DNA of 62,283 nucleotides from Clostridia bacterium (GTDB lineage Bacteria; Bacillota; Clostridia; Oscillospirales; Acutalibacteraceae), in contig JAFWYP010000067.1 in the NCBI GenBank assembly GCA_017517665.1, positions 1 through 62,283 on the forward strand, given 5' to 3'. The notes beneath the pieces were generated by a model. That model saw only the letters and a list, made by a program, of their open reading frames with translations, made no database searches and was not told the DNA's origin. Positions 17,416 to 44,334 of the stretch are shown here, piece after piece. Within the stretch, counting starts at the first letter, position 1. Every line of letters begins with the position of its first letter. Position numbers and translations under genes: made by a program.

Positions 17416-19266
17416 ATGAAGAAGATTATTGCGATTATCTTGGCACTTGTTCTTTCGTGTTCATGTCTTTCAATTACAGTTTCGGCTGCGAAAGATCCTG
17501 CAATTTCAAATTTTGCTGTTGAATCCGTTGCAGAGTATGATGTAAAAGCCGGTAAAGGTGACGGTGCGGCTGTTAAGACCGACTGGTATGAAATTGACGG
17601 AACATATTATCTTTTTGTTCCTTCATCAATTGACCTTTCAAATGCAAAAATCAGCTTTGATGCCTCTGCCGATGTTTACGCAGGTTCAACAAAGCTTGTT
17701 AACGGGGAAACAACTGATGTTTTCAACGGAAAAAATGAAGTTGTTCTCAGCTGCGGCAATGAAACTTTTAAAGTAATCGTTATTAATGAATCAACGGTTG
17801 CTTCTGTATTCATTGAAACAGAATCCGGTAATCTTGATGCTGTTCATGCCGATAAAAATTATAAAGAAGAGGGCAAAATCACAATTATCAATACTGATTT
17901 GGTATCTGCCGAATACAACGGTGTTCTTGAATACATCAAGGGCAGAGGCAATTCAACATGGGGAATGGATAAGAAGCCTTATAACATTAAGCTTGATAAG
18001 AAGGCGGACCTTTTCGGAATGGGCAAAAGCAAGAAATGGAGTCTTATTGCAAACCACAGCGATGACTCACTTGCAAGAAATGTTGCTGCTTATTATGCTG
18101 CAAAAGAAGCGGGAATGCCTTATACACCGCTTTTCGTTCCCTGTGATGTTTATATAAACAATGAATACATGGGTGCATACATTCTTACAACAAGAGTTGA
18201 AGTTGATGAAACAAGAGTTGATATTGATAACCTTGATGATGTGAACGAAGAAATCTGCATTAAAGAGTACGGCGAAGACTTTGATATGGATACTCTTGCC
18301 AAAGGCGGTATTTACGGAAGATTTGCCGGTCTTCTTCAGGGTACTCAGAAATGGGTAGAAGTTCCCGCAACAGAGGACGAAGCTGAAACCGGCGGATATA
18401 TTCTTGAAATGGAACTTGCCAACAGATATACAGATGAAATCAGCGGTTTTGTTACATCAAGAAATCAGCCGTTTATCATGAAATCTCCCGAATATGCATC
18501 GGAAGCACAGATTAAATATATTAATGACTATTATCAGAGATTTGAAGATGCTGTATTCTCCGAATCGGGTAAAAACAGCGAGGGAGAAGATTATAAAGAA
18601 CTTGCTGACATGAATTCTCTTGCTAAGTTTTACGCAATCAACGAATGGACTTCCAATCAGGACTGCGGTCTTACAAGTACCTATTTCTATAAGCCTGCAG
18701 GCGATAAGCTTTATGCAGGTCCTGTGTGGGATTTCGACATTTGTTTCGCAAATAATGACAGCGGCAGATTCGGCTGTGATTACACTAATCCCAAAGAATT
18801 TACCGTTTGCTTCGGCAGACAGTACAGAAACACCTTCTTCGGCAAATATGACGTTGACGAAGTTCCTCATATTTACAATGAGCTTTGCAAAAAGCAGGAA
18901 TTTGTTTCGGAAGTTAAAAAGGTATGGGATTCTGAGGTTAAAGCTGCGGTTGATAATACAAACTCTATGCTTTCGACATATGCAGAAGCAAACATGGGTT
19001 CAGCCGTAATGAATGCAATCCGCTGGAATATTTTCGGAACATACGATGTTGCCGCAATCAAAACTGCTTATGCAAAAGCGGTCAACGATATTTATACTTT
19101 CTCAACTGTAAGAGCTCAGTTCCTTACCGAGAATTTAGGAACTGTTCAGGTTCAGAATGTTGAAACAAACTTCTTCCTTGCTGGTCTCAAGAAAATCGGT
19201 ACAGGCATGAATAATCTTTTTGAAAAGCTTATCGTTGCCTTCGGTCTTGAAAATATGACATTCTAA
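17416..19266 (+). CDS. Secreted CotH-kinase-family protein
   Basis: A 616-residue exported protein: MKKIIAIILALVLSCSCLS with likely cleavage after VSAA. An N-terminal Ig-like beta region (about 40-130) precedes the CotH domain. That domain shows IKGRGNSTWGMDKKPYNIKL, LFGMGKSKKWSLIANHSDDS and GPVWDFDICFAN. These are the conserved features of CotH, the atypical kinase that phosphorylates spore-coat proteins in Bacillus; many gut Clostridia carry secreted versions near glycan genes, with no known substrate. GAGAGGT lies at a good distance. C-terminal residues are amphipathic but not a clear anchor or sorting signal. Confidence 0.88.
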   Translation: MKKIIAIILALVLSCSCLSITVSAAKDPAISNFAVESVAEYDVKAGKGDGAAVKTDWYEIDGTYYLFVPSSIDLSNAKISFDASADVYAGSTKLVNGETTDVFNGKNEVVLSCGNETFKVIVINESTVASVFIETESGNLDAVHADKNYKEEGKITIINTDLVSAEYNGVLEYIKGRGNSTWGMDKKPYNIKLDKKADLFGMGKSKKWSLIANHSDDSLARNVAAYYAAKEAGMPYTPLFVPCDVYINNEYMGAYILTTRVEVDETRVDIDNLDDVNEEICIKEYGEDFDMDTLAKGGIYGRFAGLLQGTQKWVEVPATEDEAETGGYILEMELANRYTDEISGFVTSRNQPFIMKSPEYASEAQIKYINDYYQRFEDAVFSESGKNSEGEDYKELADMNSLAKFYAINEWTSNQDCGLTSTYFYKPAGDKLYAGPVWDFDICFANNDSGRFGCDYTNPKEFTVCFGRQYRNTFFGKYDVDEVPHIYNELCKKQEFVSEVKKVWDSEVKAAVDNTNSMLSTYAEANMGSAVMNAIRWNIFGTYDVAAIKTAYAKAVNDIYTFSTVRAQFLTENLGTVQVQNVETNFFLAGLKKIGTGMNNLFEKLIVAFGLENMTF

Positions 19267-33302: not shown

Positions 33303-33335
33303 CAGGCTGTCTCATTGTGAGGCAGCCTGATTTTT
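33303..33335. terminator. Bidirectional terminator between the LCAT-like gene and sigE
   Basis: 12-bp stem CAGGCTGTCTCA / TGAGGCAGCCTG (one T-G pair) with TTG loop, then TTTTT. It ends sigE transcription on the other strand. Confidence 0.87.
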
Positions 33336-34047
33336 ATATTTCACGTTTGATTTTTTCGATTATTCTTTTTTCAAGCCTTGAAATATAGCTTTGTGATATG
33401 CCGAGAGAATCAGCTACTTCTTTTTGAGTATATTCTTTTCCGCCTCCGATTCCGAATCTCATTGTCATTATCATTTTTTCTCTTTCTTCAAGTGATGATA
33501 TGATTTTATATAATCTGCTTTTTTCGTCATCTTCTTCAAGTTCTCGGTAAACGTCTTCGGGTTCATTTCCCAAAACATCGGAAAGCAATAGTTCGTTTCC
33601 ATCCCAATCAACATTCAAAGGTTCAAAATAAGATACCTCAGCTTTAAGAGAATTGGTTTTTCTTAGGTACATCAGAATTTCGTTTTCTATGCATCTGGAA
33701 GCATATGTAGCGAGTTTTATATTTTTTGAAATCCTGAATGTGTTTACCGCTTTAATTAGTCCTAAAGTTCCGATTGATATTAAATCTTCAATTGCTATTC
33801 CTGTATTTTCAAATTTTTTGGCTATATATACAACAAGTCGCAGGTTGTGAACAATAAGTTCTTCTCTTGCATCTTTATCTCCATTTTCATGTTTCAGTAA
33901 TAAAATGTTTTCTTCTTCGACAGAAAGCGGGGCGGGAAGTGATTCCGGACCGTTTATATAGTCTACCTCAACTTCAAATAATTTGCATTTAATTTTATCA
34001 ATAAATTTTCTCAATGATGCTATGAATTTTGTTGATTTTATATTCAT
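33334..34047 (-). CDS. sigE: Sporulation sigma factor SigE precursor (mother-cell sigma-29)
   Basis: A 237-residue sigma-70 factor that directs early mother-cell transcription. The N-terminal hydrophobic/basic pro-sequence (about 1-27) is removed by SpoIIGA. The family mark [17 protein letters not shown] follows. Region 2 shows [35 protein letters not shown] and [19 protein letters not shown]. Region 4 shows [21 protein letters not shown] and [19 protein letters not shown] fits Met 34047; the seven upstream residues in frame are not part of the gene. It lies 23 bases after spoIIGA. sigG, which follows sigE in many spore formers, is absent: a terminator and a convergent gene come next. Confidence 0.95.
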
Positions 34048-34070
34048 GGTTTTCCTCCTTGAAATCATCT

Positions 34071-34916
34071 TTAGTTTTTATCTTGCAACAAATCAAAAAA
34101 CGGTTGACCTATTAATGCTGAATAATTGCCCGAAATGATTTTTTTGTCTGTAATTCCGATAAAAATATTTTTAACAATTTTTGTGTTTCCGGAGATAATA
34201 ATTTCTATACTGTCAGGCATAAAAGCCGGAAGGATGCTTTTTCCGCTTATTGTTGAAAATGGGATTAATCTGTAATTTTTCAGGTTTTCAAATTCCTCTT
34301 TATTTGTCAATTTGATAATTAAATCTTTTTCGGCAATTACAACGGGTTTTCCCGAAAAACAGTCGCAGAGTGTGTTGCCCGAGTCAAACAGGGCTTTACC
34401 TTTAACGGCTCTGCCTTTATATTTTATAGCTATATCATAAACGCATTTTGGCGGCGTTTTATTATTATTTATTTTGGTTATTACCCAAATTAATAAGTAA
34501 CAAATTACCGATATTATAATTAAAGACAGAATATCAATATCAAAGTAAATTATTCCGTTGTTATATACTGATAAATTCGGAAACAGAAGGATGTTAATTG
34601 CAAGCATTATTCCGCTGAATATAAAATTTACCGATAAAAAAGCAAAAAAATGTTTTAAAAAATTTTTTAATGATTTTATTTCGGTTACAATTAAAATAAT
34701 AATCGTTATGTAAATAAGTTTAGTAACAATATTAAAAATCGGATGTATCTTATTAATAAAAATTGTAAGAGAAAAAAGACTTCCGATAAATGAAGAAATA
34801 ATTAATCTTATTGTTTTATAATTTTGTCCGGTTATCATTGACTCAGCTTTAAGCAATAAGTAGTTAATTATAAAGTTTAAAATAATCAGAATGTCCGCAT
34901 AGACAACCGTTTTCAT
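34071..34916 (-). CDS. spoIIGA: Sigma-E processing peptidase SpoIIGA
   Basis: A 281-residue membrane aspartic protease that cleaves pro-SigE after signalling from the forespore. The N-terminal half has about five hydrophobic helices ([34 protein letters not shown]). The C-terminal half is the protease domain, with catalytic motif [19 protein letters not shown] and later [11 protein letters not shown] and [18 protein letters not shown] fits Met 34916; six further in-frame residues upstream are unlikely to be translated. It is the first gene of the spoIIGA-sigE operon and its promoter has the 22-bp spacing known for Spo0A-activated spoIIG. Confidence 0.93.
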
Positions 34917-34939
34917 TCTATCACCCCTTAACATCTTTG

Positions 34940-38909: not shown

Positions 38910-40517
38910 ATGACAAAAAGAATTACCGCATTTATCCTTTCAATTGCCGTTCTCATGTCGGCATTCGCAATCCCTGCTTATGCAGCAACAGAAGTAACAT
39001 CCGATTTCGAAAGAGGTTTTTATCGTTTTGTTGATAAACTTCTTGACGTAGTTGTCGGCGGAATAACAAATCTTATTGTTGAACCCCGCAGTTTTGTTGA
39101 TAACGATGATTATGTTTCTGAGAACTTCTATGAAGGTCATAAACCTGAAGAGTTTTTGAACGCTCCCGCATCCGATGCCGTTTGGAAAGTCGGCTATGCA
39201 AACGCATCAATCAAAACAGGTAAGGAACTTGAAGAGGAGCATTATGTCGGTGGCAGCCTTGCAATAACAAAGAAGCTTGCCGATGAAGTAAGAGATGATC
39301 AGAAAATCAGAACCGTTGCAATTTCCGACGGAAGAGGAATCAGCATTTTTGCATCAATTGATACATTTGGTCTTGCAAACAATGAAGTGAAGGTTATCCG
39401 TGAGAAGTTCCAGGCTTATGCAGATACTATGGGCTGGGATATTACAAGCATCAATATTTCCGCACTCCATCAGCATAGCTGCGTTGACACATTCGGTCTT
39501 AACGGAGATATTATCGGAGCCCTTTTCACTTCTTCTTTCAGAAACCTTCTCGGTCTTGAGCTTCCCAGCGGAAAAAATACAGGTTTTATGGATAATCTTT
39601 ATGAAGTATCAGTTCAGTCAATGATTGATGCTGTAAATGATATGCAGACAGGTAAACTTTACTTTGGTACAATTGATGCAACAGAGTATATCAGAGAAAA
39701 GCGTAAGCCTGAAGTTTTTGACAGCAACCTTAACAGAATCCGCTTTGTTCCCGATGCAGCCGGTGAAAAAGAAACATGGATTATCAACCTTCCCATTCAC
39801 TGTGTCGGCAACGGCGCTGCAGGAACAATGGTTACAGGCGACTATCCTTATTTTATGGAAGAATATATTAATAAGAATGAAGATGCTAACTTTATGCTGA
39901 TTCTTGGTGCTGAACTTGCAATTTCTTCCGAATATCCCGATGATCTTGTTGCTGATCCTTATTATCTGGATAAGTATCCCGATGACGAAGGTTATGCAAG
40001 AATGGCTGCTTACGGTTATCTTCTTGCCGAGCTTGCAAGCAATGTTTCAAACGATAAGGAAATAGCACCTATTCTTAATATCAGATACAAGGAAGTTATG
40101 GTCCCCGTTGATAATTCAATATTCAAGCTTGCTGCAAGAGGCGGTCTTCTTACTAATACTGTTGTTAAGAACGGACTCGGATATGAAACTCCCACCGAAG
40201 TAGGATACCTTGAACTTGGTAATGACCTTGCAATTGCAATTATTCCTGGTGAGCTTGCACCTGAAATTGCTTTCGGCGGTGCTGTTTCTGCTGAGGATTC
40301 ATGGGACGGAACTGAATGGAACTATACTGCATTTGCAGATGCAACAGAAAGAAAGCTTCTTGTTTTTGGTATTACTAATGACCAGATAGGTTACATGCTT
40401 ACAGATAATGACTGGCGTTCATATCTTACCGAAAATGAAGAAATCGTTTCAACAGGTCCCAAGGCAGGCGCTGTTATTACAGCAACATATCTCGATCTCT
40501 ATAATGAAGTTAAATAA
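38910..40517 (+). CDS. Secreted neutral-ceramidase-like hydrolase
   Basis: A 535-residue exported protein: MTKRITAFILSIAVLMSAFA, cleavage likely after AYA. The mature part resembles the N-terminal domain of neutral/alkaline ceramidases: VGYANASIKTG (opening strand), NISALHQHSCVDTFG in the place of the ceramidase 'SxTHSG' zinc motif, then LPIHCVGNG and VTGDYPYFMEEYI, and LAIAIIPGELAPEIAFGG near the C-terminus. Neutral ceramidases split ceramide into sphingosine and fatty acid; gut bacteria can meet host and Bacteroides sphingolipids. The expected Ser nucleophile is not obvious to me, so the exact reaction is uncertain. GGAGG precedes the ATG. Confidence 0.7.
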   Translation: MTKRITAFILSIAVLMSAFAIPAYAATEVTSDFERGFYRFVDKLLDVVVGGITNLIVEPRSFVDNDDYVSENFYEGHKPEEFLNAPASDAVWKVGYANASIKTGKELEEEHYVGGSLAITKKLADEVRDDQKIRTVAISDGRGISIFASIDTFGLANNEVKVIREKFQAYADTMGWDITSINISALHQHSCVDTFGLNGDIIGALFTSSFRNLLGLELPSGKNTGFMDNLYEVSVQSMIDAVNDMQTGKLYFGTIDATEYIREKRKPEVFDSNLNRIRFVPDAAGEKETWIINLPIHCVGNGAAGTMVTGDYPYFMEEYINKNEDANFMLILGAELAISSEYPDDLVADPYYLDKYPDDEGYARMAAYGYLLAELASNVSNDKEIAPILNIRYKEVMVPVDNSIFKLAARGGLLTNTVVKNGLGYETPTEVGYLELGNDLAIAIIPGELAPEIAFGGAVSAEDSWDGTEWNYTAFADATERKLLVFGITNDQIGYMLTDNDWRSYLTENEEIVSTGPKAGAVITATYLDLYNEVK

Positions 40518-41774: not shown

Positions 41775-41807
41775 ACAGAAGCAATTTATGTTGCTTCTGT
41801 TTTTTTA
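41775..41807 (+). terminator. Rho-independent terminator after rodA
   Basis: 10-bp perfect stem ACAGAAGCAA / TTGCTTCTGT with a six-base loop and a T7 run. Confidence 0.92.
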
Positions 41808-41838: not shown

Positions 41839-41867
41839 TTGACAAATCACCAAATATAGTATAAAAT
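41839..41867 (+). promoter_or_regulatory. Promoter of the sigma-like/WG/SH3 fusion gene
   Basis: Perfect TTGACA (41839-41844), 17-bp spacer, TAAAAT (41862-41867). It is a sigma-A-type promoter, not an ECF-type AAC/CGT element, so autoregulation by the encoded factor is not suggested. A 73-base untranslated leader follows. Confidence 0.75.
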
Positions 41868-41940: not shown

Positions 41941-44100
41941 GTGAGCGAAAACATTATTCAGTATGTTGCCGCTGCATCAAACGGTGATACCGATGCAATG
42001 GCAAAGCTCTATTCCAAAACATTGAAAGCTTCGTATTTTCTTGCCTATACTTTGAGCAACGATAAAGATGCAGCTCTCGAAATAACAAAGAAGTCTTACG
42101 CAAAGGCATTCTGCACAATTGATAAACTGAAAAGACCTGAAGCGTTTGAAATCTGGATGAAACAAAACGTCGCTTTGGTTTATAAAGAAGGCGTTAAGTT
42201 TGTTTTTTCTGATGCGGATGCCGGTGCCGTTGAGAATTCTTCAGAATTTCTTTCCGAGGAAATTTATAATGATGAAGAGGCAAGCGCAAAGATACTTTCT
42301 GCCGTATCCGAACTCAGCCCCGAGCTTCGTGCTGCAATTGTTCTACACTATAATAATGGTATGCCCGTAAATATTCTTGCTAAATTTTTCGGTGTGTCTG
42401 AAAGCACATCCAATGCTTTGCTCGGAAAGGCAAGAAGTGCTATTCTTTCTGCGGTAGAACTTGATTCATCAAATATAGAGAACGGAGCCCTTCCTGTTCT
42501 TACAAAAATCTTCCAGCGTTCAGCAACGGTTACTGCAATTGAAAATTCATTTGTTCGCGATATTTTTATATATGCTATTGATGCTTATGAAGCTTCAAAG
42601 CCTGCTGAACCTGTTCATGAAGAAACTGTTGTTCCTGCTCCCGTTGAAGAAGCTCCTGCTGTTCAGGATAATTCTGTTGTTCAGGAAGCAACAACTGAGC
42701 AAGACGAAGTTTCTGCTGATGAGGCAGAAGATTCTTCACAGTCTTTGACTCCGGAAGACAGCAATGTTTTAGCGTTCAAGCAGAAGATAAGTGAAATTCT
42801 CAGCGGAGAAAGCGTTCCTGAAGATGTTCAGTCTGAAACTGCAGAATCAGATGTTCAGGATGATGTTGATGTTCCCGAGTTTGTTTCTGAAGAAAAAACA
42901 CAAGAGGCAATTGAACATTTTTCAAATTATGAATCAAATGATGAGAATAGCAAAGCTGTTGTTTCGGATAATAAAAAGAAAAAATTTGATTTGAAGATTA
43001 ATAAAAAATTAATCGCTATCATATGTGCTTCACTTGTTGCGTTAATAGTGATTTGTGTTGCAGTGTCTAAAATCACAGGCGGTGATAAACCCGGTAAGAC
43101 TCCTGCAAACAACGATCCATCAGGCGTGGTTGATACTCTTGCATCGGGATATGATTGGCGCGCGGGCGGTTTTGCTGAATGCTCGGAAATTAAATATCTC
43201 GATGAAAACTGTATTTCTTTCAAATCTGTTTCAACCGGAAAATACGGATTGCTTGATTATCAGGGCAATGTAATTCTGCAACCCAATTATGACGGCTTCA
43301 GACATTGCCGTACAGGCAGAGATTATTCAAACAGCGGTATTTATCACAGTCTTGTCGTTATCGGTACGGAAGAATATGAGTTTGATGTTATCAACGGTAA
43401 TGTAACAATTTCCGATACGCCTCATCTTGACCATACTCTTAACAGCGAAACTCTCGGTGATAGATCATATGAAGAACGTGACCGTTATTTTGAAGGATAT
43501 GCCGCTGCCAGAAAAGACGGTAAGTGGGGTTATGTAAGCCAGGAAAGAGATAAGAAAGTTATTCCTTATGAATACGAAGCCGTAAATGAATATCCTTCCG
43601 CTCTCGATTATGCAGGCAGCGATTATTGCCGTCCTGTTACTGACGGTCACATCGCTGTTAAAAAGAACGGAATGATGGGTATTATTAATCTCGAAAACGA
43701 TATTGTTGTTCCTTTTGAGTATTCAAATATTATGCCGGGTAAAAACGGTGTATATATTGCCTGCAAAGGCGGTACATGGGGTGTAATCCTTCTCGGCGAT
43801 GCTGTTTCATCTTTTACCGGTATTAACATTTCAATTGAGCCTGTTTCACCCGATAATTCGGAAGATACAACCGGTTCTTCAACAGCTTATGACAGCTACA
43901 CTGTTATTTCTGAAAGCGGTGCAAATGTAAGAGACGGTGCAGGTGCTGATTATGAAAAAATCGGTGAACTTAAGTATGGCGATACTGTAAGAGCCTATGA
44001 TACCAAGAGAGCCGACAACGGCAATAAATGGGTTAAAATCAGATACGAAGGCAAATACGGATGGGTTGCAATGAGCAATCTTGAAGAAGAAGGCGTTTAA
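41941..44100 (+). CDS. ECF-sigma-like module fused to a transmembrane segment, WG repeats and SH3 domain
   Basis: A 719-residue protein starting at GTG 41941 with GGAG ten bases upstream. Residues about 1-80 match sigma region 2 (DTDAMAKLYSKTLKASYFLA; LKRPEAFEIWMKQ) and about 115-172 match region 4 (LSPELRAAIVLHYNNGMPV; ILAKFFGVSESTSNALLGKA). In region 2.2, the usual core-binding Q-E pair reads K-K (about 50-51). Residues about 175-350 are an acidic, Pro/Glu/Val-rich linker; a basic KKKK stop precedes one TM helix (about 357-376). Outside are WG-repeat strands (GKYGLLDYQGNVILQPNYDG; GKWGYVSQERDKKVIPYEYE; GMMGIINLENDIVVPFEYS) and a C-terminal SH3b (ANVRDGAGADYEKIGELKYG; KWVKIRYEGKYGWV). A membrane-held sigma or a sigma-derived sensor is possible. 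It is a single gene. Confidence 0.85.
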   Translation: MSENIIQYVAAASNGDTDAMAKLYSKTLKASYFLAYTLSNDKDAALEITKKSYAKAFCTIDKLKRPEAFEIWMKQNVALVYKEGVKFVFSDADAGAVENSSEFLSEEIYNDEEASAKILSAVSELSPELRAAIVLHYNNGMPVNILAKFFGVSESTSNALLGKARSAILSAVELDSSNIENGALPVLTKIFQRSATVTAIENSFVRDIFIYAIDAYEASKPAEPVHEETVVPAPVEEAPAVQDNSVVQEATTEQDEVSADEAEDSSQSLTPEDSNVLAFKQKISEILSGESVPEDVQSETAESDVQDDVDVPEFVSEEKTQEAIEHFSNYESNDENSKAVVSDNKKKKFDLKINKKLIAIICASLVALIVICVAVSKITGGDKPGKTPANNDPSGVVDTLASGYDWRAGGFAECSEIKYLDENCISFKSVSTGKYGLLDYQGNVILQPNYDGFRHCRTGRDYSNSGIYHSLVVIGTEEYEFDVINGNVTISDTPHLDHTLNSETLGDRSYEERDRYFEGYAAARKDGKWGYVSQERDKKVIPYEYEAVNEYPSALDYAGSDYCRPVTDGHIAVKKNGMMGIINLENDIVVPFEYSNIMPGKNGVYIACKGGTWGVILLGDAVSSFTGINISIEPVSPDNSEDTTGSSTAYDSYTVISESGANVRDGAGADYEKIGELKYGDTVRAYDTKRADNGNKWVKIRYEGKYGWVAMSNLEEEGV

Positions 44101-44114
44101 TTTAATATTAAAGC

Positions 44115-44334
44115 GTTGAAAAGGAAGAATTTATTATCAGCGTCACAGAGAGTCGGTTACATGGCTGAAATGACCGATGAGCATAAGGATAATAAAAGGC
44201 CGCCTTTGAGCTCCGTTCCGATGAGTTACGGCGTTTCCTGCGTTAAAGGAATTGAGTGGTGCAGTTTGCACAATTTGGGTGGTACCGCGGCAAAAGCCGT
44301 CCCATAACCGAATTGTTAAACTGCACCTTTTTTT
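44115..44334 (+). promoter_or_regulatory. T-box riboswitch controlling alaS
   Basis: A tRNA-sensing leader. Stem I begins with AGAGAGTCGG around 44147-44157. The T-box TGGGTGGTACCGCG is at 44276-44289. Its UGGU (44280-44283) pairs with the ACCA end of uncharged tRNA-Ala. The competing terminator is GGTGCAGTTT (44258-44267) / AAACTGCACC (44318-44327) plus T7. Specifier candidates are GCT at 44164-44166 and GCT in TTGAGCTCC at 44210-44212; the second sits where specifier loops usually occur, and either fits tRNA-Ala(GGC). When alanine runs short, uncharged tRNA stabilises the antiterminator and alaS is read. Confidence 0.93.

Follow-up and report, generated by a model that had tools for sequence, protein, structure and literature searches.

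Single-chain proteins in which a sigma factor is fused to a membrane sensor are already known. For the groups ECF48, ECF52 and ECF53 (e.g. SCO4117; PMC8999054) and for IutY of ECF243 (PMC5826349), an ECF sigma domain, a transmembrane (TM) segment and a further extension are described in one chain without a separate anti-sigma factor, and release by proteolysis has been proposed for ECF52/53 and shown for IutY. In PhyR of the Alphaproteobacteria, according to PMC8103513, an ECF-fold domain with degenerate RNA polymerase (RNAP) and promoter regions sequesters NepR. The 719-aa protein analysed here shares sigma domain, TM and extension in one chain with ECF48/52/53 and IutY, and intact versions of this layout were found across its order, so the original prediction that sensor, anchor and sigma-like part in a single chain would be undescribed was not supported. 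What is unusual is the degenerate sigma domain: the sigma domains of ECF48/52/53 and IutY are working or presumed working, whereas the contact residues are lost in the 719-aa protein. ECF48/52/53 also carry a zinc finger, whereas the ectodomain of the 719-aa protein consists of WG repeats and SH3 and no zf-HC2 zinc finger occurred among its Pfam matches at E≤1. As in PhyR, where it is kept for protein binding, the ECF-like domain has degenerate RNAP and promoter regions. In contrast to PhyR, which is a response regulator, contains a receiver domain and has NepR as its partner, the 719-aa protein is a membrane protein with no receiver domain among its Pfam matches at E≤1. PhyR is the closest precedent for a pseudo-sigma adaptor. 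Neither a WG-repeat sigma fusion nor a membrane pseudo-sigma appeared in the titles and abstract openings of the papers listed from a mainly open-access literature, the 2021 ECF re-classification lying outside that scope, and the novelty of a membrane pseudo-sigma receptor is tentative. The preferred reading, to which a probability of about 0.6 is assigned, is a membrane receptor in which a tethered sigma has turned into a module for binding proteins, and which signals by means other than transcription initiation.

The open reading frame at 41941..44100 (+) of the window, that is, of the whole 62,283-nucleotide stretch of DNA analysed, was found to be a real gene with a GTG start. Its parts were as follows.

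41941..44100, + strand: gene of the pseudo-sigma/TM/WG-SH3 protein (open reading frame, orthologues, alignment)
41941..42216, + strand: sigma2-like domain, residues 1-92 (profiles, alignment)
42277..42456, + strand: sigma4-like domain, residues 113-172 (Pfam Sigma70_r4_2)
42487..42585, + strand: conserved segment after sigma4, residues 183-215, LPVLTKIFQ ... VRDIFIYA (orthologue alignment)
42616..42975, + strand: acidic variable linker, residues 226-345 (alignment, dN/dS)
43009..43065, + strand: single TM helix, Lys-rich on its N-terminal, predicted cytoplasmic, side (hydropathy)
43138..43830, + strand: WG-repeat ectodomain, residues 400-630 (profile, alignment)
43915..44082, + strand: bacterial SH3 domain, residues 659-714 (profile)

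The WG repeats and SH3_3 were matched by Pfam at 3.1e-13 and 2.5e-12, respectively, and the hydropathy scan gave a single hydrophobic stretch near residue 357 (Kyte-Doolittle 3.27), in agreement with the predicted order of acidic linker, one TM, WG repeats and SH3 in one chain. The positive-inside rule suggests that the WG/SH3 part lies outside. With this predicted orientation, sigma domain, TM and extracytoplasmic part occur in one chain as in a tethered ECF. Sigma regions 2 and 4 had both been placed in residues 1-172. Region 4 was recognized by Pfam Sigma70_r4_2 (1.5e-7, 31.3 bits, above the cut-off of 25.7), and the module as a whole by NCBIfam TIGR02954 over residues 6-169 (E=2e-19), a similarity beyond chance, though at 69.9 bits and thus below the profile's own cut-off of 188.5; TIGR02937 reached 24.8 bits against a cut-off of 42.9. 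Region 2 was not recognized by Pfam Sigma70_r2 at E≤1, and the 719-aa gene was not among the 19 places that this profile found in its own genome at E≤0.01. In 29 aligned orthologues, Sigma70_r2 matched 3 and Sigma70_r4_2 all 29 at E≤0.01. The N-terminal module may thus have kept a sigma-like fold, as far as profiles and alignment can tell. Since sigma4 is recognized in every one of these orthologues, binding to the RNAP flap may persist. In one special case of the preferred reading, sigma4 would still grip the beta flap but sigma2 would be unable to engage, leaving RNAP anchored or inhibited at the membrane; the better preservation of sigma4 speaks for it, and we give it little weight.

Regions 2.1/2.2 are reported to bind the beta-prime clamp helices (PMC7406223). 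In Mtb SigH, N88 acts as the wedge that unwinds the DNA, I85 forms part of the -10 pocket and R183 makes contact with -35 DNA, and changes in these residues reduce transcription (PMC6411747). SigH N88 and I85 were placed at positions 79 and 76 of the 719-aa protein by spacing from a conserved Trp (SigH W81, here W72). Position 160 is presumably the equivalent of SigH R183, judging from the SigH sequence. At all three sites the expected residues were replaced.

42088..42093, + strand: K50-K51 in place of the region-2.2 Q-E/D (alignments)
42166..42177, + strand: residues 76-79, pocket Ile changed to Asn and unwinding-wedge Asn to Leu, at the equivalents of SigH I85 and N88 (alignments)
42412..42420, + strand: residues 158-160, where the -35 helix has N and L for K and R (alignments)

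The K-K pair noticed earlier in the single sequence proved to be conserved, with K50 in 36/40 and K51 in 31/40 orthologues. Q50, E/D51, N79, K158 and R160 were each present in 21 of the 22 paralogue modules of the genus. In contrast, among the 29 aligned orthologues position 50 was K in 26 and Q in one, position 51 was K in 25, N79 was kept in L032 only, position 158 was N, D or E in all 29 and position 160 was L, V or F in all 29. Position 76 was I in 5 and N or K in 35 of 40 orthologues. A block of four residues that follows position 83 and as a rule includes two basic ones was missing in 29/29 orthologues, and the region-2.4 stretch had 10 residues in 40/40 orthologues compared to 14 in 56/59 intact modules. 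This comparison, like those of charge and fixed residues below, contrasts selected sets: the 40 leave out L031, whose N-terminus is cut off, and L116, and the 59 leave out the low scorers L036, L085, L090, L098, L103 and L104 and the stand-alone L005.

When Q50, E/D51, N79, K/R158 and R/H/K160 were scored in 106 modules, identical ones counted once and comparison modules fetched by similarity and not at random, the score was 0 in 38/40 orthologues and 1 in the other two (L028 keeps Q50, L032 keeps N79). The 65 other modules (64 plus L156) scored 5 in 46 cases, 4 in 13, 3 in two and 1 in four; without L156, 58/64 scored 4-5. Among the ECF-type proteins of the own genome, the stand-alone L005 scored 3, L223, L224 and L225 scored 2, L221 and L227 scored 3 and L219 scored 4, the non-ECF sigmas not being comparable on this scale; a low score is therefore suggestive, and no proof, of inactivity. 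Clamp-, -10- and -35-contact residues of an ECF sigma were thus absent and degenerate contacts of the PhyR type were present. Almost all orthologues lack the residues that contact RNAP and the promoter, which suggests that the N-terminal module is a pseudo-sigma and has probably lost sigma activity.

Intact sigma modules in long open reading frames, mostly with a hydrophobic segment, were present in the same genus. In the family, at least 31/300 genomes, 5 of them congeners, matched the sigma profile at E≤1e-20, and in the order at least 19/394 genomes from ten family codes had an intact sigma in long frames, both counts being lower bounds because scoring was limited to the two or three candidates taken from each genome; L046_1, only 217 aa as fetched, is a putative fusion. 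Like the 719-aa protein, these relatives are single chains that combine sigma with a large C-terminal part and, in most cases, a hydrophobic segment. In contrast to it, they keep the Q-E/D, the Asn and the region-4 K/R, and their hydrophobic segment is mostly weaker.

The motif AGACCAA-N14-CGTC was found 59-107 nt upstream of six intact tethered ECFs of the genus of approximately 740-760 aa, two of them near-identical (L035, L037, L038, L039, L043 and L052). A looser form of the motif occurred in 8/107 upstream regions compared to 10/5350 shuffles, a post hoc count, since it was inspection of these very regions by eye that had first suggested the motif. It occurred in none of 41 orthologue upstreams. 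The exact motif gave 37 sites in 7 genomes, compared to 2 for the reversed control; these sites lay in G000, G010, G013, G014, G019 and G026 and none in G004, and six of the seven genomes searched were already known as holders of tethered ECFs or orthologues. By a lenient rule applied without a control, the site was followed by an open reading frame in 17/20 loci, four of these being tethered ECF genes. AGACCAA-N14-CGTC looks like a promoter of the intact tethered ECFs, and those that bear it are probably working, self-regulated sigma factors. The genes that AGACCAA sites precede, as named by eye, were ECF genes, genes for secreted proteins resembling the ECF ectodomain and genes for NfeD-like membrane proteins.

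Upstream of the 719-aa gene there was no ECF-type motif, and ECF autoregulation of this gene was rejected. The following elements flank it instead.

41775..41800, + strand: hairpin resembling an intrinsic terminator, separating the FtsW/RodA-like gene from the 719-aa gene (hairpin scan)
41839..41867, + strand: sigma-A type promoter TTGACA-N17-TAAAAT (conserved in orthologue upstreams)
44107..44307, + strand: T-box leader of the downstream alaS (Rfam RF00230)

One terminator-like hairpin was found compared to a shuffle mean of 0.0, whereas the 2 promoter-like sites of the window alone were not above the shuffles (mean 2.1). The sigma-A promoter was accepted because of its conservation across orthologues: TTGACA-N17-TAnnAT lay 45-73 nt upstream in 28/29, the promoter score was ≥10/12 in 29/29, and it was ≥11/12 in 25/29 compared to 11/580 shuffles and 4/22 paralogue upstreams. 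With hairpin and promoter upstream and the alaS T-box downstream, the 719-aa gene looks like its own transcription unit.

Selection was compared along the gene by Nei-Gojobori dN/dS in 9 orthologue pairs, which share sequences and include some dS values >1. The ratio was 0.016-0.104 for sigma2, 0.038-0.127 for sigma4 and 0.008-0.086 for WG, compared to 0.116-0.315 for the acidic linker (7/9 pairs computable; itself below 1) and 0.147-0.358 for the TM stretch, which was among the least constrained parts. As the TM stretch is weakly constrained, no conserved cleavage motif near it was evident in the orthologues. K22, K29, S31, C58, K62, E70, Y81, F87, P142 and K148, among others, were fixed in 40 orthologues and rare in the 59 intact modules, and the mean charge of residues 5-92 was +2.7 in the orthologues compared to -1.6 in the intact modules. 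These findings show that the pseudo-sigma module is under purifying selection and is not decaying. That it is a decaying relic, a fossil attached to a WG/SH3 receptor that alone matters, is thus very hard to credit: WG-SH3 proteins without a sigma part do exist in the same genus (L002 and frames of 333-470 aa) and in G023 the halves of the orthologue are in two frames, but the low ratios of sigma2 and sigma4, the newly fixed residues and the presence of the complete module in all 29 aligned orthologues argue against it.

The original prediction had left two uses of the module side by side, a sigma released from the membrane or a fold reused as an adaptor. The adaptor is favoured, because purifying selection still acts on a domain whose contact positions have disappeared from almost all orthologues. 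A tethered ECF that has diverged but still works, in which a surface signal would lead to proteolysis near the TM and the N-terminal part would then direct RNAP to an unusual promoter, is improbable: the protein has the layout of known tethered ECFs (PMC8999054), of L156 and of the intact paralogues, its sigma4 is detected in 29/29 orthologues and ECF-type proteins with scores of 2-3 exist in its own genome, but the clamp, -10 and -35 contacts are gone, a sigma-A type promoter stands where the ECF-type motif is absent from all 41 orthologue upstreams, and the TM stretch is weakly constrained and shows no evident cleavage motif.

In the preferred reading, the protein would be a single-span membrane receptor, expressed from a housekeeping-type promoter, whose cytoplasmic part is an ECF-sigma fold that lost the residues for holding core RNAP, opening the -10 element and reading the -35 element, and was retained and adapted for binding proteins. 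The WG/SH3 part would face the cell surface or wall, which it may sense, and the long acidic linker would let the pseudo-sigma reach a cytoplasmic partner. The signal would then consist of binding or releasing that partner, which might be RNAP itself, a protein of the anti-sigma kind or some other regulator. As a special case, the module could be a PhyR-like mimic that titrates an anti-sigma or the inhibitory segment of another ECF and frees the true sigma depending on ectodomain occupancy. This is somewhat unlikely: PhyR/NepR sets a precedent (PMC8103513), and further ECF-type sigmas are encoded in the genome, one ECF having a zf-HC2 anti-sigma next to it, but no anti-sigma gene was recognized beside the 719-aa gene, no receiver was matched, and regions 2.1/2.2 and sigma4, which class I anti-sigmas contact according to PMC7406223, are altered here. 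More generally, and at a little under even odds, pseudo-sigma receptors may form a class of surface receptors whose cytoplasmic effector is a dead sigma, which arose when a tethered ECF lost its function and which selection maintains in an adaptor role, as with pseudokinases. If the sigma fold can signal for a membrane receptor without RNAP, some of the proteins that profiles would label as sigma factors in gut Clostridia are mislabelled, and mimicry of a sigma, described for the response regulator PhyR (PMC8103513), would extend to receptors. Intact and apparently dead versions of the same layout make the loss of sigma function directly testable.

An intact counterpart of the 719-aa protein was found in L156 of MAG AS10tlH2TH_150, one gene on one 9.7-kb metagenome contig. 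Sigma, TM and WG lie in one 735-aa chain; its sigma is intact (score 5/5; region 2 at 2e-11, region 4 at 1.5e-11, TIGR02937 at 89 bits compared to 24.8 in the 719-aa protein), and its WG half is 50% identical to that of the 719-aa protein. In contrast to the latter, L156 had no SH3 match and no alaS was found beside the gene. In 394 genomes of the order, with two candidates scored per genome, none of the matches listed outside G000 reached the WG half as a further relative with WG and intact sigma. In a quick tree with SH-aLRT support only, covering 86/106 modules and 20/40 orthologues without the five scored columns, the 20 sampled orthologues formed one group (SH-aLRT 100). L156, L036 and L085 adjoined this group without a resolved position, L085 on a long branch, while L090/L098 nested among intact LRR-type fused ECFs (SH-aLRT 96), apart from the orthologues. 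The most likely ancestor of the pseudo-sigma receptor is a working tethered ECF that had this layout. The simplest account is that such an ECF lost its sigma function, and this may have happened on more than one occasion, since L090/L098 are separate from the orthologues in the tree. L090 and L098 of the family, 683 aa each as extracted, form a second pseudo-sigma group. L085, of 784 aa and from another genus of the family, has a very degenerate sigma-like N-terminus, TM, WG and SH3, and its C-terminal part resembles a ComEA-type HhH.

An orthologue of the 719-aa gene was present in 42/45 congeneric genomes (best E-values 1.4e-66 or lower), and the gene is vertically inherited. G019 and G026 had paralogues only and nothing was found in G011; alaS was likewise not found in these three genomes, in a search without a positive control, so that they may simply lack the locus. 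The 29 orthologues aligned at full length had the same domain order, and together with the presence of the gene in 42/45 congeners this ruled out a chance fusion; the exception was G023. Contig ends cut the gene in several draft genomes. In G023 (C5:902-3302, L107) the halves of the orthologue were in two different frames on one contig. In the species collection, 40/42 loci were titled uncultured Clostridia (Oscillospiraceae, Ruminococcaceae and Clostridiaceae among others), often from the gut of ruminants or horses, and the other two were weak WG-only matches in Bacteroidota. A WG-SH3 protein with TM and without a sigma part was seen at about 95 kb in G000:C24 (L002; frame of 643 aa, start uncertain), with similar matches in most congeners.

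As originally noticed, no anti-sigma gene was recognized beside the 719-aa gene, which lies between the FtsW/RodA-like gene upstream and the T-box and alaS downstream. The downstream order alaS-HIT-PRT-comEC was kept, with alaS in 20/20 loci L055-L074 and 36/40 loci L117-L156, two sets that come largely from the same genomes; three of the 4 loci without alaS end at or soon after the gene and the fourth is L156. Because the upstream genes vary among loci and the T-box separates alaS, no functional link to the neighbours is claimed. Upstream of the 719-aa gene, at 38910-40517 of the window, lies the gene of a 535-aa secreted-looking protein, for which Pfam gave no match at E≤1 and NCBIfam none better than chance, in a neighbourhood kept in close relatives. 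SigE, a sporulation sigma, and SpoIIGA, the peptidase that processes it, are encoded at 33334-34934 (-), and a CotH kinase-domain protein at 17416-19266.
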